A stretch of 13,872 nucleotides of DNA from Microcaldota archaeon (GTDB lineage Archaea; Micrarchaeota; Micrarchaeia; Micrarchaeales; Micrarchaeaceae), in the NCBI GenBank assembly GCA_021834865.1, contig JAKBRD010000021.1, positions 1 to 13,872 of the forward strand, given 5' to 3'. Under the pieces are notes generated by a model. It saw nothing but the letters and a program-made list of their open reading frames with translations. It had not been told where the DNA came from and made no database searches. The translations under genes and the position numbers were made by a program. Shown piece by piece: positions 1 through 13,872 of the stretch (position 1 is the first letter of the stretch; each line of letters starts with the position of its first letter).

Positions 1-2395
1 AAATGCTCTTCAATTCATCCTTCGAGGAATTGACGGTATTATAATATTCCGCAGGAACATTTATATTTATTAGCTTGGCCGGTGCGTTGAGGGCCAGCTT
101 GGAATCGCTCTTGCTCTTCCTGACTATTGCTATTATGTCATTCAGAAGGTTTCCTTCGCTGTCTATATCCTCTGCTACAACCCCGCTCTCAAATATGAAT
201 CCGTTTATGACATATCCATTTGGCTTGTCCTGTGCTACATGCTTTGGAAACTTCTCTAGCATTATGCTGCTGTCGCTGAACATCGCATTTATCTCCTCTG
301 CCGCATGTGGCATTATTGGAGCGAGAGCCTTCAGGGATTCCATAAGAACATGCCTGAGCGTGAATATTGCGGCAATCTTGCTGCCCTCGCCCTTCTTGCT
401 GGTGTCGTATATCCTGTGCTTTACGTTCTCTATGTAATAGTCGCAGAATTCGTGCCAGAAGAAATTTACAAGCTTGGTAGCTGCATCATAAATGTTGTAT
501 GCTTCGTAATCTTTGTCCGCGCCTTCAAGGACTGCGTTGAGCCTTGTGAGTATCCACGCGTCAAATATATTGATGTCGTTGTGAGGCGGCTCTTCCGGGA
601 TCTTGTTCTCGCCTATCGCGTTCCTTACGAAAACAGCCGAATTGTAAGCCTTGCCTATGAAGCTTTTCGCGTATTTGACATCTTCGTAGGAGAAAACCTT
701 GTCCTTGTGCGTAGCACCGCTGAGCGCAACCCACAGCCTTACGCTGTCTATTGAATATTGCTTTGCAAGATTCAGCGGGTCAACGCCATTGCCTAGGCTC
801 TTGTGCATCTCCCTTCCGTCAGGCCCCAATACCATTCCGTGAGTAAGCATTGTCTCAAGCGGCTTGCTCCCAGTTATGGCCCATGTCCTGTATATAGTAT
901 AAAATGCCCAAGTCCTTATTATGTCAGTTCCCTGTATGCGCACAGCCGGAGGAAACGCAGACTTGAAGAACTCCTTATCGTCAGGCCATCCGCTTATGAG
1001 CATTGGCGTAATGCCGGAATCGACCCACACGTCGCACGTGTTCTTTTCGCCCTCTATGTTGGATGATCCGCACTTCGGGCATTTTTCCACCGGCGCCTTT
1101 TCAGCAGCTGGATTCACCGGTAGCATTGACTCTTCAGGGGCTATGGTCTCTCCGCAATCTGCGCAGTACCAGAACGGTATCGGAGTTCCGAATACCCTGT
1201 TCCTGGATATGTTCCAGTCCCACTCTATAAAGTTTGCCCAATCATAAAGCCTTTGCGCAGAGCTTTCGGGTATCCAGTGCATCTGCGATGCCATCTCCTT
1301 TATCTTTTCCGAATATTCCTTGGTTTTGAGGAACCATTGCATCTCAGATATCAACTCAATCGGAGTGCCGCATTTGTCGTGAACTTTCACTGTCTGGCTT
1401 ATCACGTCGCTCTTGACCAGCAGATGCGCAGCGTCAAGATCCTTCAGGACCTCTTCGCGGGCCTCATTTACCTTCATTCCCGTGTACTTGCCTGCGTTGA
1501 GAAGCCTTCCGTTCTGGTCCTCCGCCCTTATAAGCTCCAGCTTGTGCTTGTAATACATCATGACGTCCTGCTTGTCTCCGAATGTGCAAACCATCTCAGC
1601 GCCGGTGCCAAAATCCTTGTCTACGCTGTCGTCGGCTATTATCTTCACATCCCTGCCTGCCAACGGCACAGAAACCTTGCGGCCCACCATTTTCTTGTAT
1701 CTGCTATCGGAAGGATTTACGGCTACGGCTACGCATGCGTGCATCAATTCCGGCCTCGTAGTGGCTATTATTATGTCCTCTTCCGACTTTCCTGGCGAAG
1801 CGAATCTTACATGGCTGAGCTTGGTGTCTCTTTGCTTCTCTTCTGTTTCCTCTCTTGCTATCGAGCTGCTGCAGTGCGGGCACCATTCTACCGGATGGTC
1901 TGCCCTGTAAACGAACCCCTTGCTGTTCATGAGGAGCAGCGACTTCTGGACCTTGGCCCTGTAGTCTTCCCCCATGGTCGCGTATTCGTAGCGCTCGTCG
2001 AATGATGCACCAAGGTATCTCATCCCCTCCTTGAGAACCTTTATGTTTGAATTTGCCACTTCCACGCATTTGTTGTAGAATTCTTCCCTTGGCATGTTTC
2101 TTCCGTATTTCTTTTCAGTTTCTATCTCTGTCGGGAATCCCTGCGTGTCCCATCCCTGCGGGTATAGCACGTTATATCCTTTGGCCCTTCGGTAGCGTGC
2201 AATGGCATCAATGTAGCACACCCAATATGCCTGGCCCATGTGCAGGCTTCCCGTTGTGTTCGGCGGAGGAGTGTCTATTACAAATATGGGTTTTGAAGTT
2301 TCATCTTTGTTGAAGTTGAACATCTCGGCCTTTAGCCAATAATCGTTCCATTTTTCCTCTTCTTTCGGATCATAAGGCAAATAATCACATCGCAT
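1..2395 (-). CDS. valS: Valyl-tRNA synthetase, C-terminus cut by window edge
   Basis: Class I aminoacyl-tRNA synthetase charging tRNA-Val in the cytoplasm. My translation of the minus strand from ATG at 2395 gives 798 residues without a stop to base 2. In order: an N-terminal Rossmann half with DTPPPNTTGSLHMGQAYW (the HIGH motif, here HMGQ), zinc-ribbon cysteines (WCPHC), the CP1 editing domain (ATTRPELMHACVAVAV and FGTGAEMVCTFGDKQDV, typical of ValRS), a second zinc element (WYCADCGE, then CPKCGSSN), RTWAFYTIYRTWA, and a KMSKS-equivalent reading EMHKS (797-811), then the helical anticodon-binding domain. Archaeal ValRS usually runs some 60-90 residues further, so only the tail is missing. 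The ATG is preferred because a TATA-like box lies about 29 bases upstream and suggests a leaderless mRNA. ValRS identity is strong; the KMSKS variant is the only oddity. Confidence 0.95.
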   Translation of the reverse strand, partial: MRCDYLPYDPKEEEKWNDYWLKAEMFNFNKDETSKPIFVIDTPPPNTTGSLHMGQAYWVCYIDAIARYRRAKGYNVLYPQGWDTQGFPTEIETEKKYGRNMPREEFYNKCVEVANSNIKVLKEGMRYLGASFDERYEYATMGEDYRAKVQKSLLLMNSKGFVYRADHPVEWCPHCSSSIAREETEEKQRDTKLSHVRFASPGKSEEDIIIATTRPELMHACVAVAVNPSDSRYKKMVGRKVSVPLAGRDVKIIADDSVDKDFGTGAEMVCTFGDKQDVMMYYKHKLELIRAEDQNGRLLNAGKYTGMKVNEAREEVLKDLDAAHLLVKSDVISQTVKVHDKCGTPIELISEMQWFLKTKEYSEKIKEMASQMHWIPESSAQRLYDWANFIEWDWNISRNRVFGTPIPFWYCADCGETIAPEESMLPVNPAAEKAPVEKCPKCGSSNIEGEKNTCDVWVDSGITPMLISGWPDDKEFFKSAFPPAVRIQGTDIIRTWAFYTIYRTWAITGSKPLETMLTHGMVLGPDGREMHKSLGNGVDPLNLAKQYSIDSVRLWVALSGATHKDKVFSYEDVKYAKSFIGKAYNSAVFVRNAIGENKIPEEPPHNDINIFDAWILTRLNAVLEGADKDYEAYNIYDAATKLVNFFWHEFCDYYIENVKHRIYDTSKKGEGSKIAAIFTLRHVLMESLKALAPIMPHAAEEINAMFSDSSIMLEKFPKHVAQDKPNGYVINGFIFESGVVAEDIDSEGNLLNDIIAIVRKSKSDSKLALNAPAKLININVPAEYYNTVNSSKDELKSI

Positions 2396-2420
2396 GCCGG
2401 CAAGAAGCGCGGCTGACAGC

Positions 2421-2428
2421 TAATATAT
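2421..2428 (-). promoter_or_regulatory. TATA-like box of valS
   Basis: The minus strand reads ATATATTA here, centred about 29 bases upstream of the valS ATG at 2395. That spacing fits archaeal TBP/TFB promoters firing at or next to the start codon, with no leader. No Shine-Dalgarno motif lies between box and ATG. Confidence 0.45.
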
Positions 2429-2440
2429 TCCAGCTATAGA

Positions 2441-2476
2441 TTAAAAATTGTTTGCTGCAACTAGCTGCAGCAAACA
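2441..2476 (-). terminator. Hairpin plus T-run after the PH-like gene
   Basis: Bases 2449-2459 and 2466-2476 form a perfect 11-bp inverted repeat (arm GTTTGCTGCA plus one closing T-A pair) around a 6-base loop. On the minus strand it begins 3 bases after the TGA of the upstream gene (2480-2482) and is followed at once by ATTTTTAA (2448-2441). This is the layout of a bacterial-type intrinsic terminator. Archaea usually terminate on T-runs alone, so the hairpin could instead stabilise the mRNA 3' end or be a protein-binding palindrome. The T-run also lies just upstream of the valS promoter, so it could separate the two transcripts. Confidence 0.6.
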
Positions 2477-2479
2477 GGG

Positions 2480-3706
2480 TCAGTCTGTCGTTTTGCTATT
2501 TATGAAGTGCTCGAATACTTTCTTTTCCTTCTTTTTCTTCTCGTTAAGAGCCCTGGCGTTGAATATGATTGAGTTTCCCAGTATTTTCTTTGCCACTTCC
2601 TGCTTGTGTGCATCAAGCGCATTCTTAATCTCAACGCTGCTTTGCTCCTCTCCAACGTTGCTCTTTTTCTCGGCTTCTTCCTTCCTTAGAAGCCCGAAGC
2701 CTTCGGCTTTCTCCACGTGCGGCATTTCGGCACTGCGGTCTTTTGCGCTTGCGACAGTTTCCACATGGCTGCCAACAAGCCTTTCCCCGAATTCTTGGTA
2801 AACGTTGCCGGTAAATTCCTCTATGTTGAGTTCCGGGAAGCATAAGCAGTCATAGCTTGCGTATGCCGAAGGATCTCCCTCAAGCACTACGGTGTGGCTT
2901 ATATTGTTCATAGCCACATATCTCATCTCATAAGCATTCCTTGCAACCTCCTGCATTACATTCTGCTTTATGGTGCTTGCTATTGTAGCCGAAAGGCTTG
3001 ACCCTACGCTTTTTGTATTTCCGTACAGCATTCCAGCAACCGCACTGCTTCTCGAGTAAACGCTGTGCGTAAGCGTGTACAGGGCCTCTGAGCTCATAGC
3101 ACTGTATATAGTGCTTTTTATCTTAGGCATAAAGTTGAAGCTTACGTTGAGCTGTTTGCCATCGCTGTTCTTTGCGTTTACGCTCACCATCTGCTTCTTC
3201 GAATATTCTTCGGCATAAGCGTCCATGCGCTGCTTTGCTGCAGTTGCTTTCTCTTCATGGATTTCTTCTGAAATGTATTCCATGACATGCCTGGCTCCTA
3301 CTTCCATAGCCACTGTCTGCTGCTTTGCCATAATGTTCTTCTGCGCTTCCATGGTGCCTATTGCATAAGCCATGCGTGCGTCGCTGCTGAGGCTTATCAT
3401 CCTGCTTATCACTTCGAACAGGCCCAGTGCTGCCTTCCTGCTCACGTCGAAAACCTCTGGCTCCTTCCTGCCCACCAGGTTTATCTCCAATCTCCGGCCC
3501 TTCCTGACGTTGGGGAATGCTATCTTGTCATAGAACAGCGACTTGTAGCTAGAACCTGTGAACACCAGAATCCTACTGTTGGTCGCTATTATCCTGTTTT
3601 TCCCCCTGCCAAGCAGCTTTTTCCCGTACTGCGCCTCGTAGTATCTTTCCTCTTCCTCAAATAGCATCGGTTCAGAGAGCTGGTTGGCATTTTCATTGTT
3701 TGACAT
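2480..3706 (-). CDS. Unrecognised protein with PH-like N-terminal domain
   Basis: A 408-residue protein from ATG 3706; I do not recognise the full-length family. Residues about 25-100 resemble a bacterial/archaeal PH-like domain of the YokE/bPH type: RGKNRIIATNSRILVFTG is the usual strand-turn-strand ('iiaTn.Rilvf'), followed by SLFYDKIAFPNV, a strand ending in LEINLVG, and an amphipathic C-terminal helix ending in FEVISRMI. Residues about 105-180 are helical and charged, probably coiled coil. About 195-265 is a Ser/Ala/Met-rich helical part (SSAVAGMLYG, SSLSATIAST). About 270-310 looks like strands with a CLCFPELNIEEF segment, and the last 90 residues are Lys/Glu-rich. No signal peptide or clear membrane helix is seen. 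An in-frame TTG at 3730 would add 8 residues; neither start has a ribosome site. It has its own promoter and terminator-like hairpin, so it appears monocistronic. Function unknown; a scaffold or membrane-associated role is only a guess. Confidence 0.75.
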   Translation of the reverse strand: MSNNENANQLSEPMLFEEEERYYEAQYGKKLLGRGKNRIIATNSRILVFTGSSYKSLFYDKIAFPNVRKGRRLEINLVGRKEPEVFDVSRKAALGLFEVISRMISLSSDARMAYAIGTMEAQKNIMAKQQTVAMEVGARHVMEYISEEIHEEKATAAKQRMDAYAEEYSKKQMVSVNAKNSDGKQLNVSFNFMPKIKSTIYSAMSSEALYTLTHSVYSRSSAVAGMLYGNTKSVGSSLSATIASTIKQNVMQEVARNAYEMRYVAMNNISHTVVLEGDPSAYASYDCLCFPELNIEEFTGNVYQEFGERLVGSHVETVASAKDRSAEMPHVEKAEGFGLLRKEEAEKKSNVGEEQSSVEIKNALDAHKQEVAKKILGNSIIFNARALNEKKKKEKKVFEHFINSKTTD

Positions 3707-3760
3707 AAGTAAGTTTGCGCCTACATCCAAATTGGATTAGAAAGTTGTAATGCTCCTATT

Positions 3761-3770
3761 ATTTATACTT
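3761..3770 (-). promoter_or_regulatory. TATA-like box of the PH-like gene
   Basis: The minus strand reads AAGTATAAAT preceded by an A-rich stretch. Transcription would start near 3739. That gives a short leader to the in-frame TTG at 3730 or about 33 bases to ATG 3706, so the box does not settle the start codon. Confidence 0.45.
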
Positions 3771-3862
3771 TTTGTATTGTGCGTTTGTATCTCCATCATG
3801 CATCGCAACAACCATAAGTTTGTTTATTGCCCGCCTTCGAAAACCATGGACTTTGCCCGGAT

Positions 3863-3878
3863 CTGGCCAAATTGCCAG
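3863..3878. repeat. Small inverted repeat upstream of speB
   Basis: CTGGC and GCCAG flank a 6-base A/T-rich spacer (CAAATT). The repeat is centred about 22 bases upstream of the speB TATA-like element. The spacing suits a dimeric regulator site in the 188-base divergent region, but a 5-bp arm is short and could be chance. Confidence 0.3.
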
Positions 3879-3883
3879 TTTAG

Positions 3884-3897
3884 AAAAGGCTTAAATC
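3884..3897 (+). promoter_or_regulatory. BRE/TATA-like element of speB
   Basis: The stretch AAAAGG followed by CTTAAATC has its TATA-like part centred about 26 bases before ATG 3919. This predicts a leaderless speB mRNA, and no ribosome-binding motif is present in between. Confidence 0.4.
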
Positions 3898-3918
3898 AGT
3901 TAAACCGGATATCTAACC

Positions 3919-4812
3919 ATGCAAATATTGAACTCTGCGGCCCCATATAATCTTTTTGGGCTCGAAGACCAAAGTTACGAGAAAGCTAAGTTCGTGGTAC
4001 TCCCTGTGCCTTACGATTCTACAGTGAGCTATGGCTCAGGCTCTAGAGATGGGCCCGACGCCATAATAAGGGCCAGCAGGCACATGGAACTCTACAGCGA
4101 GGAGCTCGGCTTCTCCCCTGCGGATGCGGGCGTATATACTCTTGAGCAGCTTGAGCCGGACGTGAGCGGACCTGAAGCCATGGTCAAAAGAATAGCGAAG
4201 GAAGTATCTATAATAATCGATGACGGAAAGATCCCGCTTCTGCTTGGCGGCGAGCACACGATTGCCATAGGTGCCGTCAAAGCAACAGCAGATTCCAATA
4301 ACAACTTTAGCGTATTGCATTTCGATGCGCATTCCGATTCGCGAGAGGAATTCATGGGAAGCAGATACTCGCACGCATGTATAATGGCCAGAATAAGGGA
4401 GATGTGCAAGAGCACATACAGCGTAGGGGTAAGGAGCATAGACGAGCAGGGCTATTCAAAGTATTCAAAAGACATACTCTACATGAAAGACATGCGCACA
4501 ATGTCGGACGAAGCGATAGTAAACTCCATATCAAAGCACATAAAGGAAAACGTTTACATAACGATAGACTTGGATGTGCTGGATCCATCTGAAATGCCAA
4601 GCGTGGGAACGCCGGAGCCTGGAGGCATGAGGTACACAAGCCTAATTAACATCCTCTCAGGGGTCTTAAAAGGGAGAAAACTTATAGGTGCAGACATCTC
4701 AGAGCTTGCGCCAATACCCGGGATTAGGGCTCCGGACTATCTTGCAGCAAAGCTGGCCTACGCGCTTGTCGGAATGGCCGTTATAGGCACACGCAAAAAG
4801 GTGCAGAAATGA
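3919..4812 (+). CDS. speB: Agmatinase / ureohydrolase family protein
   Basis: Predicted cytoplasmic Mn-dependent ureohydrolase, most likely splitting agmatine into putrescine and urea for polyamine synthesis. The 297-residue length is normal for the family. All six metal ligands are visible: H113 (GGEHTIAIG), D136, H138 and D140 (HFDAHSD), and D217 and D219 (TIDLDVLDP), followed by the family signature VGTPEPGGM. VGVRSIDE (169-176) is also typical. The substrate loop reads EEFMGSRYSHACIMARI, a variant of the usual H-G-T/H-A-x segment of agmatinases, so arginase, guanidinobutyrase or a related activity is not excluded. The ATG start fits a TATA-like box about 26 bases upstream. The next gene overlaps its stop by 4 bases, so the two are probably co-transcribed. 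Family membership is certain; the exact substrate is inferred. Confidence 0.9.
   Translation: MQILNSAAPYNLFGLEDQSYEKAKFVVLPVPYDSTVSYGSGSRDGPDAIIRASRHMELYSEELGFSPADAGVYTLEQLEPDVSGPEAMVKRIAKEVSIIIDDGKIPLLLGGEHTIAIGAVKATADSNNNFSVLHFDAHSDSREEFMGSRYSHACIMARIREMCKSTYSVGVRSIDEQGYSKYSKDILYMKDMRTMSDEAIVNSISKHIKENVYITIDLDVLDPSEMPSVGTPEPGGMRYTSLINILSGVLKGRKLIGADISELAPIPGIRAPDYLAAKLAYALVGMAVIGTRKKVQK
4799..4803 (+). promoter_or_regulatory. Ribosome-binding site for the phosphatase gene
   Basis: AGGTG sits 5 bases before ATG 4809, inside the speB 3' end. It matches the archaeal anti-Shine-Dalgarno sequence and supports that start. Confidence 0.6.
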
Positions 4813-5426
4813 AAGTGATACTTGCAAGGCACGGCAACACGGAAGCGAACAACGCAGCTGTGCATCAATCGCCTGAAACTCCTCTTTCAAAAGAGGGCAT
4901 AGCCCAATCTGAAGCCCTTGCAAAAAAGCTAGCCAGGGTAGATATAGACCATATAATATCCAGCCCCTATGCTAGAGCAAGGCAGACTGCCGAGATAATA
5001 AATAGAAAGCTGGATAAGCAAATAGAATACGACGACTTGCTCGCTGAAATAATCAGGCCAAAGGAATTCGTAGGCAAACGAGTGGACGATCCTGAAGTGG
5101 AGAAAATCACGAAGGAAATAGAAAAACACGCCAAAAATCCGGAATGGCGCTACCCGGGGTCGGAAAACCTGAATGATTTCATAATCAGGGTAGGGAAATT
5201 CATAAAGCACTTGGAGAGCACAAACTATGGCACAGTGCTTATAATCACGCACAGCGCCGTAATAAAAACAATAATAACAGTATGCATGCTCGGCCAGGAT
5301 ATTGATATTGAGCATTATTCGAAGATTCTAGATTTCCTGCACACGAAGAATACCGGCATAAGCGAACTGAGGTATGATGATTCTGGCTGGGGGCTAATGA
5401 CATACAATGACCTGTCACACCTCTGA
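4809..5426 (+). CDS. Histidine phosphatase family protein
   Basis: A 205-residue member of the phosphoglycerate mutase-like (histidine phosphatase) superfamily. The phospho-acceptor motif is LARHGNTEAN, with R7 and H8. The second arginine is in SSPYARARQTAEII (R56), the acid/base Glu is probably E80 (LLAEIIRP), PGSEN (116-120) aligns with the usual GES segment, and the second catalytic histidine is H148 (IITHSAVIK). It is shorter than true cofactor-dependent phosphoglycerate mutase and lacks its extra insert, so a broad or small-molecule phosphatase is more likely (for example of sugar phosphates, phosphoserine or cobamide precursors); the substrate cannot be read from sequence. The start codon overlaps the speB stop in ATGA and has an AGGTG ribosome site. 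Downstream it faces the UPF0200 gene across 41 bases. Confidence 0.88.
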   Translation: MKVILARHGNTEANNAAVHQSPETPLSKEGIAQSEALAKKLARVDIDHIISSPYARARQTAEIINRKLDKQIEYDDLLAEIIRPKEFVGKRVDDPEVEKITKEIEKHAKNPEWRYPGSENLNDFIIRVGKFIKHLESTNYGTVLIITHSAVIKTIITVCMLGQDIDIEHYSKILDFLHTKNTGISELRYDDSGWGLMTYNDLSHL

Positions 5427-5467
5427 GCGTCAAGAACACTTAAAGCAGAATGCGTCCCTGTTTTGCG

Positions 5468-6055
5468 TCAATGCCCTGCGCTCTTCTTCCCGTGCTCCTT
5501 TGCCTTTTCCTCCTTTTCGCGCTGCTCTATTTCATTTAGCACTTTTTCGACCTTGCTCCTGAGCTCATCGACGCTGCCTGAGTTTCTTATTGTATATTTT
5601 GCATGATCCATGGCGCTTGCTATCCCAAACTGCTTCTCCTTCTCCTCCCTGTTTTCAAAATCGGAATAATTTTTTGGGTCGTCGTCCCTCTTCCGCTCCA
5701 CCAGCCTGTCGAATCTCATCATTTTCGGCGCTACTACTGATATTATCGTAACGTTTTCAAGCGTCTTGAAATACTTTGCCTCGTCTGCGCTCCTGAGACC
5801 CACTATGAGTATATCCTTTGCCGGGAGCTTCCTTATCTTTTCTATGGTCCATCTTGCCACGACGTCATTTCCGTATTCCTTTCTGGCGTTCAGCGAGAAA
5901 TTGCGTATGCTGTCCTTGTTGACTTCTATTCCGTTCTCTGCCATCTTTTCCTTGACTGACGCGCTCATTTCCACTTCCTTGAAGCCCTTTGCCGCAAGCA
6001 TATCTCCAACAAGGCTTTTTCCGGCTCCTGGCATTCCGGTTATGCATATTATCAT
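5468..6055 (-). CDS. UPF0200-type P-loop nucleotide kinase-like protein
   Basis: A 195-residue P-loop protein resembling the archaeal UPF0200 family, a relative of the nucleoside-monophosphate and dephospho-CoA kinases. Walker A is GMPGAGKS (residues 7-14). Further family features are the conserved RKEYGNDVVARWTIEKI stretch (about 58-74), ILIVGLRSADEAKYF (82-96, in the place of the usual 'vidGiRs.aE' strand), and a lid-like segment with RFDRLVERKRDDDPKNYSDF that carries arginines for phosphate contact. The last 25 residues are Lys/Glu-rich and look disordered. The substrate of the family is not established to my knowledge. Translation starts at ATG 6055 with TATA-like sequence about 30 bases upstream. 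It is divergent from the zinc-ribbon membrane gene and convergent with the phosphatase gene. Confidence 0.87.
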   Translation of the reverse strand: MIICITGMPGAGKSLVGDMLAAKGFKEVEMSASVKEKMAENGIEVNKDSIRNFSLNARKEYGNDVVARWTIEKIRKLPAKDILIVGLRSADEAKYFKTLENVTIISVVAPKMMRFDRLVERKRDDDPKNYSDFENREEKEKQFGIASAMDHAKYTIRNSGSVDELRSKVEKVLNEIEQREKEEKAKEHGKKSAGH

Positions 6056-6079
6056 TATAATCGCTTAGAGTTGTACGCA

Positions 6080-6100
6080 AAAACTATTATTATTTATCCG
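6080..6100. promoter_or_regulatory. Shared A/T-rich divergent promoter core
   Basis: The 69-base gap between two divergent starts holds one A/T block, ACTATTATTATTTATCC. On the plus strand TTATTTAT ends about 27-30 bases before TTG 6125. On the minus strand AAATAATAAT lies about 30-35 bases before ATG 6055. One block may thus hold overlapping TATA boxes for both genes, each mRNA being leaderless or nearly so. Confidence 0.4.
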
Positions 6101-6124
6101 GGCTAAATCTATCTTGGTGCTGAA

Positions 6125-6514
6125 TTGCCCACATCCGGCCTTGCATGCCAAAAGTGCCAATACAGGTTCAACTACAAGTTTATCCCAGGGGCTTCGCTCA
6201 CGTCAATAAGGTTCGGAAGCAAAAGGTACATGCGCTGCCCGAAATGCAACAAGTGGTCAATGTTCGACCTCTCAAGGCCGCCTGTTCCTGGCCTTCAAAA
6301 GTATTCGGATTCCAAAGCGTTCGCAAGATACGCTCCATTTTTGATAGTGCCGCTTTTCGCATGGGCGGTTTTTCTTGTCATTATGTCAAATTCGCTTTTG
6401 GGCTACGGCCCTGCTTTGACGATTATCATATACGTAGTGCCTGCATTGGCGCTCGCAATAGCTCCGATACTATTTATAACAAAAAAGGCAAAACTAGTAA
6501 AAATCAAGGGCTGA
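6125..6514 (+). CDS. Zinc-ribbon protein with two membrane helices
   Basis: A 129-residue protein, not recognised by name. A small zinc ribbon is formed by C8-x2-C11 and C38-x2-C41 (CQKC and CPKC), with basic, aromatic residues between the pairs. Two hydrophobic segments follow (about 70-90 and 96-118), and a short Lys-rich tail. This suggests a small membrane protein with both ends in the cytoplasm and a metal-binding head. The start is TTG at 6125, because the next in-frame ATG (residue 37) would cut the ribbon in half and a TATA-like box stands about 30 bases upstream. Its stop codon directly abuts the stop of the convergent malic enzyme gene, with no base between. Function unknown. Confidence 0.8.
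   Translation: MPTSGLACQKCQYRFNYKFIPGASLTSIRFGSKRYMRCPKCNKWSMFDLSRPPVPGLQKYSDSKAFARYAPFLIVPLFAWAVFLVIMSNSLLGYGPALTIIIYVVPALALAIAPILFITKKAKLVKIKG
6478..6504 (-). terminator. T-rich tract downstream of malic enzyme gene
   Basis: Read on the minus strand, the 3' end of the opposing gene gives TTTTTAC, GTTTTG and TTTTTT in close succession, starting about 11 bases after the malic enzyme stop. Clustered T-runs of this kind act as archaeal terminators. Here they would lie inside the neighbouring coding region, where they encode Lys-rich residues. Confidence 0.35.
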
Positions 6515-7792
6515 TCATCCCTGTGTCTTTGTGGATACCTTTTCCAGCTTAATTCCTCTTTTTATTATCTTCGCGGCATTTTTCTTTATTGCGCTGATGT
6601 CGAGTTCGCTGTTCCTTGAGTTGCCTGACTTTATGGCACTGGCAGCTACGGCGCTCGCCACGCTAGACAGCACGCCTACCATCTCCTTGGCGCTATACGG
6701 CGCAGGCAATATATGCTCAACGTCAAGCTCTTTGCCAACGCACTTTGCAAGTGCCTTTGAAGCTTCATATAGCATGTCATAATCAACGTGTTTCGCCCCG
6801 GAATCGAGCAGGCCGCGCATTATGTTCGGAAAGCTCAACACGTTGTTTACCTGGTTCGGAGCATCGGATCTGCCGGTTGCCACTATGAAAGCCCCTGCAT
6901 CCTTTGCGTCCTTATAGGATATTTCAGGTACTGGGTTCGCAAGTGCAAACACTATCGGCTTTTCAGCCATCTTCTGTATCATTTCTTTCGTAAAAACTCC
7001 TGCACTCGAAACCCCTATCAGTACGTCAGCCTTTTCGGCTATTTCTGCAAGGCTTCCCTGCAGCTTTTCCCTATTGGTCAGCGTCGCTATTTCCTGCTTG
7101 AATTCGTTCATTCTGTCCTTGCGCCCATCGTATATCGCGCCTATGGTGTCGACTACATAAATGTTTTTTATTTTCATATAGTTCAAGAGCCTAACTATGC
7201 CCATCCCTGCCGCTCCCGCGCCGTTTATTACTATTTTGATTTTTGTTATATCCTTGCCGGAGAGCTTCAGTGCATTTATGAGTGCAGCCACCGCAACCAT
7301 TGCGGTTCCGTGCTGGTCGTCGTGAAGTATCGGAATTTCTAGCTCCTTAGAAAGCCTGTCCACTATCCTGAAGCATTTTGGCGACTCTATGTCCTCGATA
7401 TTGAAACCTCCAAATCCTGGGGCCAGAGCCTTTACGATGCTTATTATGGACTCTTCCTCCTGCGTGTCTAGGCATATCGGCACTGCATCAACGCCTCCAT
7501 ACTTCTTGAAGAGCATTGCCTTGGCTTCCATTACCGGCAGCCCGGCTTCAGGACCTATGTTGCCGAGGCCCAATATCCTGCTGCCATCTGTTATTATGGC
7601 CACGTTGTTGGGTTTTCCCGTATATGTATAAACTTTGGATTTGTCGTTCTTTATTGCGTTTGATATGACCGCAACTCCCGGAGTATACCTGAGCGCCAGG
7701 TCCTCCCTGCTGTCCACTTTAACCTTGGGTATTATCTCTATTGCTCCCTTGGATGTTTCATAAGCTTTAAGCACGTCTTCGTCAGTAGGCAT
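6515..7792 (-). CDS. NAD(P)-dependent malic enzyme (oxaloacetate-decarboxylating)
   Basis: Predicted cytoplasmic malic enzyme converting malate to pyruvate and CO2 with reduction of NAD(P). The 425-residue size matches the short bacterial/archaeal form without a phosphotransacetylase tail. The N-terminal catalytic domain has LRYTPGVAV (35-43; Y36 is the catalytic Tyr), GLGNIGPEAGLPVMEAKAMLF (K91 the catalytic Lys), the metal-binding NIEDIESP (E133, D134) and ILHDDQHGTA (D158, D159). The NAD(P)-binding domain has GAGAAGMG (191-198) and a strand ending in VVD (213-215). An Asp at the end of that strand favours NAD over NADP, but this is weak evidence. A TATA-like box (7813-7820) about 25 bases before ATG 7792 suggests its own leaderless transcript, downstream of and collinear with the fumarase gene. 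It completes a succinate-fumarate-malate-pyruvate set with its neighbours. Confidence 0.95.
   Translation of the reverse strand: MPTDEDVLKAYETSKGAIEIIPKVKVDSREDLALRYTPGVAVISNAIKNDKSKVYTYTGKPNNVAIITDGSRILGLGNIGPEAGLPVMEAKAMLFKKYGGVDAVPICLDTQEEESIISIVKALAPGFGGFNIEDIESPKCFRIVDRLSKELEIPILHDDQHGTAMVAVAALINALKLSGKDITKIKIVINGAGAAGMGIVRLLNYMKIKNIYVVDTIGAIYDGRKDRMNEFKQEIATLTNREKLQGSLAEIAEKADVLIGVSSAGVFTKEMIQKMAEKPIVFALANPVPEISYKDAKDAGAFIVATGRSDAPNQVNNVLSFPNIMRGLLDSGAKHVDYDMLYEASKALAKCVGKELDVEHILPAPYSAKEMVGVLSSVASAVAASAIKSGNSRNSELDISAIKKNAAKIIKRGIKLEKVSTKTQG
6559..6583 (+). terminator. T-runs downstream of zinc-ribbon membrane gene
   Basis: Two TTTTT runs (6559-6563 and 6579-6583) lie within 70 bases after the plus-strand stop at 6514, inside the opposing malic enzyme gene. 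They could end the plus transcript. No hairpin accompanies them. Confidence 0.25.
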
Positions 7793-7812
7793 TATTACAC
7801 CATTTTAACGCT

Positions 7813-7820
7813 AGTATAAA
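7813..7820 (-). promoter_or_regulatory. TATA-like box of malic enzyme gene
   Basis: The minus strand reads TTTATACT, centred about 25 bases before ATG 7792, in the 52-base gap after the fumarase gene. This argues for independent, leaderless transcription rather than only read-through from the fumarase gene. Confidence 0.45.
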
Positions 7821-7844
7821 ATTTGCAGCTTTTAATAACCAACC

Positions 7845-9242
7845 TTATTTTTCTTTACCTTCATTTGCCTGATTTTTGGGGTCCAGTATCTTTTCAAGCT
7901 CGCCCTTTTCCATTATTTTCATCTCAATGCACACCTGCTTCACGCTTTTGCCTTCGTCATAGGCCTTGACAGCTATTTCAGCGGCTTTGGCGTAGCCTAT
8001 GTATGGGCTAAGAGCAGTAACCAAAGAGGTGTCCATCTCCAGGTTTTTTGCAATCTCCCTTTTGTTTGGCCTTATGCCTATTATGCACCTGGAATCGAAA
8101 GCGTTGACGCCGTTGGATAATATCTTAACTGAGAAAAGCAAGTTGTAAGCTATAACTGGCATGAAAACGTTCAGCTCGAGCTGGCCAGAGTTGGCCGCTT
8201 CCCTCACTGTGTGCATGCTGCCCATTACGTTGAAGCACACCATGTTCAGCATCTCAGCCATGCTGGGGTTTATCTTGCCAGGCATTATCGAAGAACCAGG
8301 CTGCACAGCAGGGAGCACGAGCTCGTTTAGCCCTGCTCTTGGTCCTGAGCCAAGCAGCCTGACGTCGTTGGCTATCCTGTTGAGCGCTATCGCAACGTCA
8401 TCGAGAGCATTGGCAACTTCAAGCTCCGCGTGCTCGCTCTGCATTGCAGCGAAAGTGTTTGCCGATTTCCTGAACCTATGCCCGGTTAGCCTGTTGAGCT
8501 CCGCAATCGCATATTCCGAATAGCTCTTTGGTGTGTTCAATCCGGTGCCCACTGCAGTGCCGCCCAAAGGGAGCTCAAGCATCGAGACCAGCGCCCTGGA
8601 AAGCTCTTCTCTCACGTGCTTAACTGATCCGGCCCAGCCATAAAATTCCTGGCCAAGCGTCATCGGTACGGCATCCTGGAGATGGGTTCTGCCTATCTTG
8701 TATATGTGCGAAAACTCCTTGGCCTTTGCCGAAAGGCTTTTTTCGATATTGCCAAGCGCCGGAATAAGCCACTTGCATATGTAATCGTAAGCCGATATCC
8801 TTATTACGCAATGATAAGTATCGTTAGTCGATTGCGACATGTTTACGTGGTCGTTGGGATGCACAATCTTGTAGTCGCCTTTTTTGCCGCCAAGAATTTC
8901 TATGGCTTTGTTGGCTATTACTTCGTTTACATTCATGTTTGTGCTCGTTCCTGCTCCTGCCTGAAATACGTCAAGGACGAACTGGTCGGAAAGATTGCCA
9001 GAAGCTACAAGCTCCGCGGCTTTCATTATTGCATCGGCCCTCTTCCTGTCAAGCTTGCCAGCTTTCATATTTGCATAAGCTGCAGCGCGCTTGAGCGTTG
9101 CATAAGATCTAATGAATTCGTCCTGCACTCTTATCCCGGATATCTGGAAATTCATCCTTGCCCTCTCAGTCTCTGAGCCGTAATAAGCCTTGGAATCTAT
9201 CCTTACGCTTCCCAAAACATCCTTCTCGGTCCTATAACCCAT
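7845..9242 (-). CDS. fumC: Class II fumarate hydratase
   Basis: Predicted iron-free fumarase, reversibly hydrating fumarate to malate; homotetramer, cytoplasmic. The 465-residue length is typical. Motifs in order: TSTNMNVNEVIANKA (about 99-113), HPNDHVNMSQSTND (128-141), KIGRTHLQDAVP (182-193) with the catalytic-site H187, LGGTAVGTGLNTP (227-239), and the superfamily signature GSSIMPGKIN (316-325) containing the catalytic serine. The main alternative is aspartase, which shares much of this pattern and even PNDHVN and QDAVPMTLGQEF. RTH rather than RTQ, the LELNVFMPVI segment and VTALSPYIGYAKAAEIA (about 402-418) all favour fumarase, as do the succinate dehydrogenase and malic enzyme neighbours. 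ATG 9242 begins GYRTEKDVLG, a normal N-terminus. It is divergent from sdhA across 146 bases. Confidence 0.88.
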   Translation of the reverse strand: MGYRTEKDVLGSVRIDSKAYYGSETERARMNFQISGIRVQDEFIRSYATLKRAAAYANMKAGKLDRKRADAIMKAAELVASGNLSDQFVLDVFQAGAGTSTNMNVNEVIANKAIEILGGKKGDYKIVHPNDHVNMSQSTNDTYHCVIRISAYDYICKWLIPALGNIEKSLSAKAKEFSHIYKIGRTHLQDAVPMTLGQEFYGWAGSVKHVREELSRALVSMLELPLGGTAVGTGLNTPKSYSEYAIAELNRLTGHRFRKSANTFAAMQSEHAELEVANALDDVAIALNRIANDVRLLGSGPRAGLNELVLPAVQPGSSIMPGKINPSMAEMLNMVCFNVMGSMHTVREAANSGQLELNVFMPVIAYNLLFSVKILSNGVNAFDSRCIIGIRPNKREIAKNLEMDTSLVTALSPYIGYAKAAEIAVKAYDEGKSVKQVCIEMKIMEKGELEKILDPKNQANEGKEK

Positions 9243-9259
9243 GAAAACACCAACGTTAA

Positions 9260-9273
9260 TAATTGCGGAATTA
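9260..9273. repeat. Small inverted repeat in fumC-sdhA gap
   Basis: TAATT and AATTA flank GCGG. The repeat lies 18-31 bases upstream of the fumC ATG, where it would cover the start of fumC transcription. It is a possible operator, but a 5-bp A/T arm is weak evidence. Confidence 0.2.
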
Positions 9274-9339
9274 CATCTTAAACGCTTTTCTGAAACTGCT
9301 GCACTGAAGCCGATTATTTACCTAGCAAATCAAATCACG

Positions 9340-9358
9340 TTTATATTTCTTTTTATAT
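9340..9358 (+). promoter_or_regulatory. Tandem TATA-like boxes of the sdh operon
   Basis: TTTATATTT and TTTTATATC occur back to back. The second is centred about 34 bases before the TTG start of sdhA and would give a leader of only a few bases. The 146-base gap also has to hold the fumC promoter on the other strand, so the two transcription units could be controlled together. Confidence 0.45.
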
Positions 9359-9388
9359 CAAATAGTCTAATTGGTTTAGGGTAATATT

Positions 9389-11107
9389 TTGGCAGAATAC
9401 GAGGTTGTCGAATCGGACATACTTATAATAGGGGCTGGAGGAGCAGGCATGCGCGCCGCACTCGCGGCGCTTTCAAACGGCTCTAATGTAATAATAATCT
9501 CAAAATCCGTGCTTGGAAAGGCCCATACTGTAATGGCTGAGGGCGGCATAGCTGCTTCGGTTGGCAATGTGGATTCCAAGGACAACTGGCAGGTGCATTT
9601 TTCAGATACTATGGTTGAAGGCGTTTACCTTTCAAACTGGCGCATGGCCGAGCTCTTGGCAAAAGAGGCTCCAGAAAGAGTTTTCGAGCTGGAGCGCTTC
9701 GGCGCGATATTTGACAGGACCGAAGAAGGCAAGATAATGCAAAGGGCCTTCGGAGGCCACACATACAGGAGGCTCTGCCACGTCGGCGACAAGACTGGGC
9801 TTGAAATAATAAGGACGCTAGAGGACCAGATAATACATAAAAACGTAAAGGTGATGGACGAGATATACATCACCAAGCTTTTCAAGGATGGAGATTCGTT
9901 CTCAGGCGCGCTCGGGCTTTCAATGCGCGAAGGCAAGTTCTATCTTTTCAAGGCCAAGGCTCTCATAATATCGACAGGAGGGTGTGGCAGGGTGTTCAAG
10001 ATTACTTCCAATTCATGGGAATCGACTGGAGACGGGCTTGGGCTTGCTTACAAAATAGGGGTTGAGCTGCAGGACATGGAAATGATACAGTTCCATCCAA
10101 CAGGCATGGTATATCCTCCTGGAGTTGCAGGGCTGCTGGTTACCGAAGGCGTGCGTGGAGAGGGTGGCATCCTTACAAACACAAAGGGCGAGCGCTTCAT
10201 GCTCAGGTACTCGCCAGAAAAGAAGGAGCTTGATGCAAGGGATGTTGTGGCGCGATCAATATATTATGAAATACAGGCCGGAAGAGGCACAGAGCATGGC
10301 GGAGTGTACCTTGACATAAGCCAGAAGGGCGCAGACTTCATAAAAAAGAAGCTTCCAGGCATGTATTCGCAGTTCAAGGAATTTGCAGGCGTGGACATAA
10401 CAAAGGAAAAAATGGAGGTAGGCCCAACAGTGCACTATCAGATGGGTGGAATAAGGGTAGAAGCAGAAACCGGTGCGACTAACATAAAAGGCGTCTTCTC
10501 TGCAGGCGAGGTTGCCTCAGGGCTTCATGGTGCCAACAGGCTCGGCGGAAACTCTCTGGCTGACATACTGGTTTTCGGCAAGCGTACAGGAGAGGCCGCA
10601 AGCAAATACGTCAAGAATGCAAAACCTGGAAAAGTTAAAGATGCCGATGTGGCTTCAGCAATAAACGAAGTGAAAGCTTTCATAAAGCCCGGAGGAAAGA
10701 ACCCAAATGTGCTAATCGAACAACTGCGCGAAAAAATGTCAAGCAATGTGGGCATAATGAGGAACGAAAAGGACCTTCAGGATGCGCTTGAAACTATAGA
10801 GTCGATAAAATCACAATTCAAGGATGTCGGAGTATCTGGCCAGTTCGTATACAATAAAGGCCTATTGGCATGCCTTGAGCTTGGCAACATGCTCGTAGCT
10901 ACTGAGGCCATAGTCAGAAGCGCCATAATGCGCAAGGAGAGCAGGGGAGCCCATACGAGGAGCGACTACCCAAAGAAGTCAAAAGAATGGCTTAAGAATA
11001 TAATATGCAGCATAAGTGCCGACGGAAGCATGTCGCTTTCGACAGTGCCACTCAAGGAAATACCAGAAGAACTCAAGAAACTTGTAAAGCCAGAGGTATA
11101 TCAATGA
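9389..11107 (+). CDS. sdhA: Succinate dehydrogenase/fumarate reductase flavoprotein subunit
   Basis: Catalytic subunit of complex II, oxidising succinate to fumarate on covalently bound FAD at the cytoplasmic face. In 572 residues the sequence shows the dinucleotide-binding GAGGAG (15-20), the covalent-flavin site KAHTVMAEGGIAA (H46 the FAD-linked His), QFHPTGMVYPPG (H236, T238) and TEGVRGEGG (E253, R256). It also has DARDVVARS (R284 in the place of the proton-shuttle Arg), the substrate histidine H349 in GPTVHYQMGG, and R384 in HGANRLGGNSLAD. All key residues are present, so it should be active. The start is TTG, giving MAEYEVVESDILIIGAGG; no upstream ATG fits and a TATA-like box sits just upstream. 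The sdhB start overlaps its stop by 4 bases. Direction (Sdh or Frd) cannot be told from this subunit alone. Confidence 0.95.
   Translation: MAEYEVVESDILIIGAGGAGMRAALAALSNGSNVIIISKSVLGKAHTVMAEGGIAASVGNVDSKDNWQVHFSDTMVEGVYLSNWRMAELLAKEAPERVFELERFGAIFDRTEEGKIMQRAFGGHTYRRLCHVGDKTGLEIIRTLEDQIIHKNVKVMDEIYITKLFKDGDSFSGALGLSMREGKFYLFKAKALIISTGGCGRVFKITSNSWESTGDGLGLAYKIGVELQDMEMIQFHPTGMVYPPGVAGLLVTEGVRGEGGILTNTKGERFMLRYSPEKKELDARDVVARSIYYEIQAGRGTEHGGVYLDISQKGADFIKKKLPGMYSQFKEFAGVDITKEKMEVGPTVHYQMGGIRVEAETGATNIKGVFSAGEVASGLHGANRLGGNSLADILVFGKRTGEAASKYVKNAKPGKVKDADVASAINEVKAFIKPGGKNPNVLIEQLREKMSSNVGIMRNEKDLQDALETIESIKSQFKDVGVSGQFVYNKGLLACLELGNMLVATEAIVRSAIMRKESRGAHTRSDYPKKSKEWLKNIICSISADGSMSLSTVPLKEIPEELKKLVKPEVYQ
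11093..11097 (+). promoter_or_regulatory. Ribosome-binding site of sdhB
   Basis: GAGGT lies 6 bases before ATG 11104, within the sdhA 3' end. It fixes the sdhB start and excludes the longer in-frame extension back to 11005. Confidence 0.65.
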
Positions 11108-11853
11108 AAGACAAGATAACCATAAGCATATTCAGGAAGGATCCGGCATCCGGCGAAGAGGGCAAATTCGTGGACTATGAGGTTCCGGTAAAAGAGGGTA
11201 TGGTGGTTCTGGACGCTGTCAACTATGTTACAGAAAACATGGATACAACTTTGGCTGTCAGGTGGAATTGCAAGGCTGCGAGATGCGGCTCATGCGCAGC
11301 TGAAATAAACAATAGGCCCGCACTCATGTGCAAAACGAGGATAGATATTCTTGGGGATAAGATAAAAGTGGCGCCCATGGCAGTATTCCCACTGGTAAAA
11401 GATTTGGTCACCGATGTTTCAGAAAATTTTGAGATAGATCGCAAAATCCCAGGATTTACGCCGAGAGAAGGCGTAGAAAGCCCATGGATAATACCACAGA
11501 TGGACGTAGACAGGACAAAGGAATTCAGGACTTGCATAGAATGCTTCCTGTGCATGGACGTGTGCCACGTCGTAAGGGAGCACAAAAAGGACTATGTGGG
11601 CCCACGCCACGTAATCAAAGCCGCATCGCTCGACATGCATCCGATGGATACTGTTGACAGGTCCAAGTACCTGAACAAGGAGGGCGGCCTAGGGTATTGC
11701 AACATAACAAAGTGCTGCCAAGAGGTATGCCCTGAGCACATAAAGATAACAGACAACGCAATAATACAGGAAAAAGAGAGGGCAGTTGACAACTACTATG
11801 ATCCAATAGCGATGTTCCTAAAGAAAATATCAAAAAAACCAAAAGTTGATTGA
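11104..11853 (+). CDS. sdhB: Succinate dehydrogenase iron-sulfur subunit
   Basis: Electron-transfer subunit of complex II, 249 residues, linking the flavin to the membrane part. The N-terminal ferredoxin-like domain carries a [2Fe-2S] site, C56-x4-C61-x2-C64 (WNCKAARCGSC) and C76. The C-terminal helical domain has C144-x2-C147-x2-C150-x3-C154 and C199-x5-C205-x3-C209, giving a [4Fe-4S] centre plus the third cluster. Two deviations stand out. The first four-Cys motif ends CH instead of CP. An extra Cys, C204, sits beside C205 in CNITKCCQEVCP, where enzymes with a [3Fe-4S] centre have none. The start overlaps the sdhA stop in ATGA and has a GAGGT ribosome site. The stop codon TGA is followed at once, in the same frame, by the TTG start of the membrane anchor gene. 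Confidence 0.94.
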   Translation: MKDKITISIFRKDPASGEEGKFVDYEVPVKEGMVVLDAVNYVTENMDTTLAVRWNCKAARCGSCAAEINNRPALMCKTRIDILGDKIKVAPMAVFPLVKDLVTDVSENFEIDRKIPGFTPREGVESPWIIPQMDVDRTKEFRTCIECFLCMDVCHVVREHKKDYVGPRHVIKAASLDMHPMDTVDRSKYLNKEGGLGYCNITKCCQEVCPEHIKITDNAIIQEKERAVDNYYDPIAMFLKKISKKPKVD

Positions 11854-12570
11854 TTGGGAATTTACAAATCTCTGCATAACATACTTCCTTCGGAGTTCAT
11901 AGAGCCGAACTGGAGGTTCTATTCTTTTGTATTCCTCATAGCTTTTACAATAGTGATGCTTCTAGAGTTTCCTGTCAAGCCATACCACGGAATAATAGAC
12001 CCATTCTATTCGCCAACTATACTCGTGCTTCCGTTTGTCGGTTTATTCAGGCTCACATGCTACGCATACAGAAAGGACTATCACAGGCACATATTCAAGC
12101 ATCCAGTTTCCTGCGCGCTTGACAACAGGGGGGATTCCGCATTGAGGGATTATACCGGAGAGACGAAGTTCTTCAGGGTTGAAAACCTGCACAGGTATTT
12201 CATGTATTTCGGCGTAGCAATACTGCCATTTTTCTTCTATGATTTTTATCTGTCCATAACCTTCGGAGGAGGGCTGATAATAAGGCTCGCAAGCCTGATA
12301 CTTCTAGCGAACGCCATAATGGTAACGCTATGGGTATTTTCATGCCATGCAGTGCGCCACCTAACGGGCGGCAGGATGGACTGCTACGGATGCAGGTTTG
12401 CCGGAAAGCAGAAGAATTCATTCTTCAACCTCCAGTCAAAATTCAATTCACACCACGAGGCTTTGGCGTGGTCCAGCTTGATACTGTTCGTATTTGTGGA
12501 CCTGTATATAAGAGCACTCTCTGCGGGAATACCGCTTGACGTAACATTGCTGCACATAGCGCACATATGA
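11854..12570 (+). CDS. sdhC: Succinate dehydrogenase membrane anchor, Sdh1-like
   Basis: A 238-residue multi-pass membrane protein that would anchor SdhAB and pass electrons to quinone. Hydrophobic segments lie at about 22-38, 53-69, 113-135, 141-164 and 205-225, suggesting five helices. Conserved-looking residues cluster at helix ends: RLTCYAYRKDYHRH (66-79, C69), TGETKFF then NLHRY (111-115, H113), SCHAVRHLTGG (163-173; C164, H165, H169), DCYGC (176-180) and NSHHEALAWSSL (198-209). As I recall them, the RLTCYxYR, NLHRY and SCHxxRHxxGG patterns match the anchor of actinobacterial Sdh1-type enzymes rather than classical SdhC or SdhD. In Sdh1 a Rieske-type [2Fe-2S] centre sits in the membrane part. 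The start is TTG directly after the sdhB stop; the next ATG would remove the first helix. Function is strong from context, cofactor content is inferred. Confidence 0.85.
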   Translation: MGIYKSLHNILPSEFIEPNWRFYSFVFLIAFTIVMLLEFPVKPYHGIIDPFYSPTILVLPFVGLFRLTCYAYRKDYHRHIFKHPVSCALDNRGDSALRDYTGETKFFRVENLHRYFMYFGVAILPFFFYDFYLSITFGGGLIIRLASLILLANAIMVTLWVFSCHAVRHLTGGRMDCYGCRFAGKQKNSFFNLQSKFNSHHEALAWSSLILFVFVDLYIRALSAGIPLDVTLLHIAHI

Positions 12571-12574
12571 AAAA

Positions 12575-12757
12575 ATGATGATAACGATGAAAAAGATATT
12601 GCCTTCGAAATACCGTTATCCGATATTCTTCCTTGCATTCATGGTGATAAGCGCTGCCGGGCTTCTGTCAAAATACGCTGGGCTCAAGCTTGAATATACT
12701 GCGATAATAGTCGCTATCGGCTTCCTAATGTTCCTTTTCTCCATAGTACTGCCATAA
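12575..12757 (+). CDS. Small two-helix membrane protein, candidate extra Sdh subunit
   Basis: A 60-residue protein with two hydrophobic helices (about 15-32 and 41-59) joined by a short loop with Lys and Glu, and a basic N-terminus (KKILPSKYR). It starts 4 bases after the anchor stop; ATG codons at 12575, 12578 and 12587 are all in frame, and none has a clear ribosome site. Its position as the last gene of the sdh operon and its size suggest a small accessory membrane subunit, comparable in role to the small fourth subunit of some complex II enzymes, but no motif proves this. Only 15 bases separate it from the convergent permease gene. It could also be an unrelated small protein carried by the operon. 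Confidence 0.65.
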   Translation: MMITMKKILPSKYRYPIFFLAFMVISAAGLLSKYAGLKLEYTAIIVAIGFLMFLFSIVLP

Positions 12758-12772
12758 TGTCGCATTGAAAGT

Positions 12773-13872
12773 TCAGCTCCTTCCATGCGTCAGGTACCTG
12801 TAGCGTATTACTACATCGTTTATAACGTCTATAGAATCCATGCACCTGTCGCTAAGTATCTCCATGTGCTCATAGATTTCCTTGTACTCGATTATCCTTT
12901 TTATATCGGTTCCCTGCATTATCCTTTTGAGCGACGACCTAAGTATTTGGTCTGCATCATTTTCATATCCGGAAGCCTCTATAGAATTGCTGCGTATCTT
13001 TCCTATTATCTCTTCAGCACTGAGATCGTTTAGTACAGATATGCTGTCCTTGAGTAGTGCGAAGCATTTTTCCGTTGCTTCTTCCATCCCAAGCATATCC
13101 TTTTCCACGTCCTTTATTTCGTATATCATGAACCTGGATCCTATAGCTTCTATACCATCCATTACATCGTCAAGTCTCTCTGCCAGGTGTGAAACGTCCC
13201 TGTATGATATGCTGCTTGCCCCGTAATTCGCGATGTAGTCCAGTATGTCATGGACCACAAGGTCTGCTTCATGCTCCTCGCCCTTAACCAAATCAAAAAA
13301 CTCCCTGTTGCTTATCTTTGATCTGAGCCGGTCATCGATGTAAGAAAAGCCCTTATCTATGTGGCTTATGAGCTGTTCAAACTCTGTTCCAAGGGTCCTG
13401 GTTATCAGGAATATCTCGTTTTCTCTCGACGTCTCTGAAAGCGATTTGCGCTTTGTTTCAGGGAGCAGAACCATTGTCACTACGAATCCAGCCAGCGCAA
13501 GAATGCCAAGCCCTCCGAGCAGTGCATATTTCCCAAGCTGTGTCAATATAACCGGAAAAGCCAAAGTAGACAGCGCTGCCCCAAGCTTCCCAGACATGGA
13601 AGCTATTCCATGGCCCCTGGCTCTGTACTGGGTTGGATATAGCTCGGCCGGATAAACATATGTTGTAGTGTTAGGGCCGTAATTGGAGAAGAAAAACGTC
13701 AGACCGTAAATGATGAAAAAGGCGAGAGGGATTATAGAAAGCAGATAGCTCCCAGCCAAAGCGAGCACTATGAAGCTTATTCCCATAGCTAGGAACCCTA
13801 TCGACTGTATCGGCTTTCTGCCCTCCCTGTCTATAAGCGCCACGGCAACCCAGTATCCCGGGACAGCGGCAA
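12773..13872 (-). CDS. MFS permease (PHS-like) fused to PhoU-like DUF47 domain, N-terminus cut by window edge
   Basis: The reading frame is open to the right edge, so the visible GTG at 13843 is internal; upstream codons read AAVPGYWVAVALIDREGRKP. That segment, GPNTTTYVYPAELYPTQYRARGHG and the glycine-rich helix after it resemble the PHS phosphate:H+ symporter group of the major facilitator superfamily. At least four membrane helices are visible up to about 13450, ending in the usual LPETK. After a short linker, bases from about 13396 to 12796 encode a helical domain matching DUF47 (PhoU-like, usually partner of Pit transporters). Its markers are KGEEHEADLVVHDI, AERLDDVMDGIE, and YKEIYEHMEILSDRCMDSIDVINDVVIRYR. 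It has two D/E-x3-D metal-binding motifs, DDVMD and EILSD. The predicted role is phosphate uptake with a cytoplasmic regulatory tail. MFS and DUF47 assignments are good; the phosphate substrate is inferred. Confidence 0.88.
   Translation of the reverse strand, partial: AAVPGYWVAVALIDREGRKPIQSIGFLAMGISFIVLALAGSYLLSIIPLAFFIIYGLTFFFSNYGPNTTTYVYPAELYPTQYRARGHGIASMSGKLGAALSTLAFPVILTQLGKYALLGGLGILALAGFVVTMVLLPETKRKSLSETSRENEIFLITRTLGTEFEQLISHIDKGFSYIDDRLRSKISNREFFDLVKGEEHEADLVVHDILDYIANYGASSISYRDVSHLAERLDDVMDGIEAIGSRFMIYEIKDVEKDMLGMEEATEKCFALLKDSISVLNDLSAEEIIGKIRSNSIEASGYENDADQILRSSLKRIMQGTDIKRIIEYKEIYEHMEILSDRCMDSIDVINDVVIRYRYLTHGRS

Follow-up and report, generated by a model that had tools for sequence, protein, structure and literature searches.

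At the right end of a 13,872-nucleotide contig of a Microcaldota archaeon of the Micrarchaeaceae (JAKBRD010000021.1, positions 1 to 13,872, forward strand; hereafter the window), one reading frame joins the C-terminal part of a PHS-type MFS permease to a DUF47 domain. The frame runs on the minus strand from 12773 to 13870, including the stop codon (365 codons; TGA at 12773..12775), and continues without a stop to the right edge of the window, which therefore lacks the 5' end of the gene and carries its 3' part alone; the plus strand is interrupted by several stops across 12773-13870. An earlier note on this DNA had described permease and DUF47 as one uninterrupted frame, and Pfam matched both halves, although the strand had to be corrected to minus. 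Frame residues 8-149 matched Sugar_tr (E 2.6e-18) and residues 8-151 MFS_1 (2.3e-12), while residues 164-350 matched PF01865 (DUF47) with 33.5 bits against a curated cut-off of 24.4 (E 3.4e-8). The permease is represented by its C-terminal 147 residues (13430..13870, minus strand) and is followed by a DUF47/PhoU_div (PitR-type) tail of 218 residues (12776..13429, minus strand). In the PF01865 search that the note had proposed, the tail alone exceeded the curated cut-off (35.5 vs 24.4 bits, profile positions 17-208 of 214); one relative, G008/L020, fell under it with 19.1 bits. The upstream sequence, which the note had also asked for, was recovered from the best relative, L001, on the complete chromosome of Candidatus Micrarchaeum sp. 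strain A_DKE (genome G001), which shares 350 of 365 residues with the window. In L001 the whole gene (9140-11095) encodes 652 aa from an ATG, or 654 from an upstream TTG, with a complete MFS half; its 5' part, 287 residues from the ATG, corresponds to the portion beyond the window edge.

The note had warned that a sequencing frameshift near 13400-13430 might have joined two genes. Such a frameshift is excluded, as the same single frame recurs in L001 and in contigs L002-L006, L008, and L009; in L007 the gene stops at the contig end, yet it is continuous across the junction. At the junction (residues 138-165), 8 codons distinguish the window from L001 and 8/8 changes are synonymous; the permease part has 24 synonymous and 1 nonsynonymous differences, and the tail 51 and 13. 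Compared to the more distant L004, the junction showed 13 synonymous and 7 nonsynonymous differences. A sequencing or assembly artefact joining neighbouring genes could draw on the fact that the window ends within the gene and on the broken junction of L010, but it is refuted by the complete chromosome, the further contigs, 250 database proteins (see below), and the synonymous-only junction changes, and its probability is negligible. The fusion gene of L010 itself (4990-7468, a UBA168 contig) is split into two frames at the junction, where one base is ambiguous; a flaw of assembly is the likely cause. A phage origin was also rejected: tblastn returned 35 phage records, of which 0 covered 80% of the query and all were <60% identical, and no listed phage match extends far into the tail, since none of the 20 rows listed goes beyond query residue 457.

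The nearest solved structures by sequence were those of rice PHT1;11 and the phosphate transporter 7sp5, which match the permease half only. The structure prediction suggested in the note was carried out on the full-length protein with AlphaFold 2 (AF2; predicted local distance difference test 86.6, predicted template modelling score 0.74): the model places helices as expected for a twelve-helix MFS protein and then a helical tail, i.e. a predicted MFS-type permease followed by a predicted PhoU-fold domain, and a Foldseek search with this model placed PiPT and OsPHT1;11 entries at the top. L001 has all ten of the transport-site residues that we followed (D35, D38, D128, Y129, Q156, W248, D252, Y256, N354, and K382), two of which are spanned by the window itself: N354, the Asn of a GPNTTT motif (13670..13672, minus strand), and K382, the Lys of an SGKLGA motif (13586..13588, minus strand). 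We take D35, D38, D128, Q156, W248, and N354 to line the phosphate site. In alignment to 7sp5, Y129, D252, Y256, and K382 stand opposite PiPT Y150, D324, Y328, and K459 (chain numbers shifted by 2); the PiPT residue names are those of PDB titles, K459Q being the title of PDB 9b49. Among fused rows with a sufficiently long permease (n=238), D35, D38, W248, D252, Y256, and N354 were each identical in 238/238, followed by Y129 (99.6%), D128 (97.5%), Q156 (80.7%), and K382 (80.7%, otherwise R). N354 was also N in 90/90 unfused MFS rows.

The modelled tail consists of six long helices and shows the PhoU-like fold. The note had claimed two D/E-x3-D metal-binding motifs; such motifs are present, but the window tail holds four of them, all on the minus strand and here given in tail numbering: E52-x3-D56 (EHEAD, 13262..13276), D87-x3-D91 (DDVMD, 13157..13171), E156-x3-D160 (ENDAD, 12950..12964), and E190-x3-D194 (EILSD, 12848..12862). 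Across 34 fused and stand-alone DUF47 rows, E52, D56, D87, E156, D160, and E190 were invariant. In the larger set of fused tails, E52 and D56 were each found in 245/245, D87 in 99.6% of 245 (D91 lies outside this tabulation), E156 and D160 in 99.6% and 100% of 245, and E190 and D194 each in 244/244.

The survey of other archaeal genomes proposed in the note revealed that the PHS permease-DUF47 fusion is a large archaeal family and no local oddity. From three protein database searches with fusion queries (best 120 of 183, 120 of 5130, and 120 of 602), 250 of the 351 collected proteins matched hidden Markov models for both halves at E<=1e-5, a proportion that is not a frequency because the queries were themselves fusions and the sample is therefore enriched. 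The Pfam labels of the databases agree, with PF01865 occurring together with PF00083, and the source names among the matches listed include Micrarchaeia, 'Marsarchaeota', Thermoplasmata, Nitrososphaerales/Nitrososphaerota, and Thermoprotei. One protein labelled Methanothrix sp. (P0126) is 91% identical to L001, an odd name that probably reflects a binning error. Among 196 genomes drawn from the phylum of A_DKE, PF01865 was found in 72 and a close PHS relative in 14, in every one of which (14/14) it was fused; seven weaker MFS matches (29-34% identity) were unfused frames of 442-476 aa. In 300 genomes from the phylum of G010, the PHS fusion was present in G010 only, as two frames, among the matches listed at E<=1e-40, and the other strong PHS-type matches listed were unfused, at about 460-520 aa; at most four candidates were scored per genome, so further fusions in this phylum may be missed.

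Within the 196 genomes, fused and stand-alone DUF47 proteins differed in the company they keep. A stand-alone DUF47 gene occurred in 59 genomes, and in 53/59 a match to the phosphate transporter Pit (PF01384) lay within 600 bp. Pit scored over the cut-off in 53/57 genomes with stand-alone DUF47 only vs 2/14 fusion genomes (Fisher p 1.1e-8), a p value that is generous, and absences that are soft, because related genomes were taken as independent and most are metagenome-assembled genomes of unstated completeness. Pit matches below the cut-off in G131 and G170 were left out of these counts, and G136, with a 553-aa frame, a weak PF01865 match, and no PHS match, stands outside both groups. In the two fusion genomes with Pit (G009 and G061), Pit adjoins a second, stand-alone DUF47 gene. 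The fusion genomes yielded no match over the cut-off for the Pst-type binding protein (PF12849, 0/14), the Na/Pi cotransporter (PF02690, 0/14), or PhoU (PF01895, 0/14), and the single weak PF01895 match, in G019, fell within the tail of the fusion protein itself. Altogether, 12 of the 14 Micrarchaeota fusion genomes had no other phosphate importer among the families searched. The firmest case for this absence is the complete chromosome of G001, which gave no match for Pit, a Pst-type binding protein, PhoU, or a Na/Pi cotransporter.

We analyzed the descent of the two halves in quick trees. In the DUF47 tree (95 rows, branch support by the Shimodaira-Hasegawa-like approximate likelihood-ratio test only), 41 PHS-fused tails, including the separate tail frame of L010, formed one group with support 96 and one label change. 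The stand-alone rows in this tree, the loci with the best Pfam scores, represent two phyla (those of G001 and of G010), with none from Thermoplasmata, Nitrososphaeria, or bacteria. Those nearest to the fused tails were L027, L034, and L080; of these, L027 (genome G110) and L034 (genome G068) have Pit next to the stand-alone DUF47 gene. In the MFS tree (72 rows, L010 taken as fused), approximately unbiased (AU) tests spoke against a single clade of fused PHS permeases when three eukaryotic rows were present (p-AU 0.047) but permitted it without them (p-AU 0.503), the fused group having been defined before the test but after the first tree had been inspected. Fungal and plant Pho84/PHT1-like rows sit among the fused archaeal PHS proteins in this tree, a placement that is unsafe because of very long branches (1.3-1.6). 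These data are read most simply as a single old fusion of a Pit-type regulator with a PHS permease, though they do not demonstrate one.

Fusion of DUF47 to an MFS permease was also found in a different form. In G285 (G285:C8:17698-19572; L099:699-2573), a 625-aa frame matched MFS_1 with 158.9 bits and PF01865 with 84 bits. Its permease is of the MFS_1, non-PHS kind, its DUF47 is distant and falls with stand-alone DUF47 from the same phylum, and it is the sole example of this second kind that was found. One group uniting the G285 tail with the 41 PHS-fused tails was rejected (p-AU 3.6e-7; G285 has a long branch of 1.9). Thus, DUF47 has joined MFS permeases at least twice.

We compared the fusion protein with known phosphate systems. 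The main text of PMC13170248 presents a bacterial scheme of three pairings, PhoU-Pst, PitR-Pit, and NptA-PhoU. As in NptA, a PhoU-type regulator is fused at the C-terminus of a phosphate importer (PMC13170248, main text); however, NptA is a Na/Pi cotransporter (PF02690), a family absent from the Pfam matches of the fusion protein, whose importer is of the MFS (Sugar_tr/MFS_1) and whose tail is PF01865. With PitR-PitA it has in common the regulator family PF01865, but PitR proteins in that main text are those with a single PF01865 domain, the architecture of Staphylococcus aureus PitR, whereas the fusion protein also has Sugar_tr/MFS_1 and Pit is absent, and so not adjacent, in 12/14 fusion genomes. 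Because the PF01865 set described there is limited to the single-domain architecture, the fusions would fall outside it. PhoU-PstSCAB differs in being an ATP-binding cassette importer with a separate PhoU, and fusion genomes had neither PF12849 (0/14) nor PF01895 (0/14 over the cut-off). The PHS symporters PiPT, plant PHT1, and yeast Pho84 gave the best sequence and fold matches and have the site residues in common with it, but the solved relatives match the permease half only and the archaeal permease lies below the cut-off of the family model TIGR00887. Plant PHT5/VPT (SPX-MFS), named in PMC11528361, also combines an MFS phosphate transporter with a phosphate-status domain; SPX is a different domain, and none was found among the fusion's Pfam matches at E<=0.001. 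The fusion protein is none of PhoU-Pst, PitR-Pit, and NptA-PhoU: it has the regulator family of PitR, the layout of NptA, and the permease type of PiPT/PHT1.

The earlier note had proposed a distinct way of controlling phosphate uptake, and this held in part. The pairing of a PHS-type MFS permease with DUF47 is undescribed in the literature searched, but the principle of an importer-PhoU fusion has been published for NptA (PMC13170248, main text). No description of an MFS permease-DUF47 fusion was found among the open-literature matches listed, with subscription journals and preprints outside the coverage of this search, and the main text of PMC13170248 contains none of the words archaea, fused, fusion, or MFS (0 occurrences). 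The PHS-DUF47 architecture is present in databases as automatic domain labels.

The interpretation that we favor, and hold to be somewhat probable, is that the protein is a PHS-type importer with a cytoplasmic PhoU-fold tail that acts as a predicted in-cis brake and that stands in for Pit. The PHS-type permease would import phosphate together with protons; the tail would bind metal via its acidic motifs and read cytoplasmic phosphate or the state of the permease; and at high internal phosphate it would hold the permease to which it is fused in a state that does not transport. By gene fusion, a Pit-type regulator would have switched partner and become part of the importer that stands in for Pit. 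As such, the fused protein may work as a phosphate intake valve that controls itself. Several observations weigh against this interpretation. To the softness of the Pit absences noted above are added that the tail alone gave no NCBIfam family match at E<=0.001, that the AF2 model is less certain in the stretch between the domains (block means 66-69), and the points on signalling and on substrate that follow.

Rather than braking its permease, the tail could be a signalling module that reports phosphate flux through the permease to a histidine kinase/response regulator pair. In S. aureus, the main text of PMC13170248 describes PitR and the PhoU domain of NptA as acting mainly on the PhoPR two-component system. 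Furthermore, a response regulator scored over the cut-off in 13 of the 14 fusion genomes, the only genomes that these counts cover, with one in each (frames of 405-515 aa), and in 11/13 a HATPase_c frame of 742-832 aa lay within about 2 kb of it; the two such frames that were checked (G009 and G019) are PAS-HisKA-HATPase_c kinases. The absence of two-component systems from the fusion genomes would have favored a cis mechanism, and their presence therefore counts for signalling. However, the kinase is generally no neighbour of the fusion gene (on the complete chromosome of G001 they are near 310 kb and 900 kb), and signalling does not require a covalent tie. We consider signalling without a brake rather unlikely, though it is the main alternative. 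The response regulator and HATPase_c observations refer to G001:C1:900557-902637 and its equivalents in other fusion genomes. In G006 (C2:195153-200532), the strand opposite to the fusion gene carries a 753-aa histidine-kinase-type frame ~3 kb downstream of it.

The tail could also have a structural role, stabilizing or oligomerizing the permease or buffering incoming metal-phosphate without sensing. Tail-less PHS-type permeases are common, including 90 unfused rows, so that a permease can be made without one, and the link of stand-alone DUF47 to Pit points to regulation. A regulatory role is preferred over a structural one given what is published on PitR and on the PhoU domain of NptA in S. 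aureus (PMC13170248, main text) and the repeated fusion, and a purely structural tail is improbable.

Quite improbable, and slightly more so, is that the permease carries a substrate other than phosphate, such as another oxyanion or an organic acid, or that some members are non-transporting phosphate receptors. The permease scored 315.9 bits on NCBIfam TIGR00887 (phosphate:H+ symporter), a strong match that is nonetheless under the equivalog cut-off of 610.3, for which reason we call it PHS-type and not a TIGR00887 equivalog. In 46 of the 238 fused permeases W stands in place of Q156 and R in place of K382, the two changes coinciding in every case (46/46), which suggests, at the level of sequence, another substrate or a receptor role for these proteins; not every member need therefore carry phosphate. 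On the other hand, L001 retains the conserved site residues, the closest solved structures are phosphate transporters, and 12/14 fusion genomes lack another phosphate importer of the families searched. The 46 proteins lie between P0299 and P0351 and bear Thermoplasmata names where an organism is given.

A more far-reaching reading joins these elements and is, taken as a whole, unlikely. The fusions would form a fourth, archaeal class of transporter-coupled PhoU regulators, in which an old partner switch gave rise to a self-contained phosphate homeostat, comprising importer, sensor, and brake in a single chain, that stands in for Pit, Pst, and PhoU in minimal-genome archaea; the Thermoplasmata-named subclade of 46 proteins would have become phosphate receptors; loss of the tail would have produced the tail-less relatives, perhaps eukaryotic Pho84/PHT1 among them; and the same trick would have been repeated in G285.

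PhoU-type action is hard to test where regulator and importer are separate. The one-to-one tie in a single chain makes deletion or mutation of the tail a clean test of direct action of a PhoU fold on a transporter. The fusion would also add a fourth transporter family, and the archaea, to the three-pairing bacterial scheme in the main text of PMC13170248, and it offers a possible reason for the lack of Pit and Pst matches in many Micrarchaeota with the gene.

Across the window, no tRNA and no Rfam family at the gathering threshold was found. A succinate dehydrogenase/fumarate reductase operon occupies 9389-12757 on the plus strand, convergent with the fusion gene. It comprises the flavoprotein (9389-11107), the iron-sulfur subunit (about 11095-11853), a 238-aa protein without a Pfam match (11854-12570), and a hydrophobic 56-aa frame (12587-12757), perhaps an additional membrane subunit.
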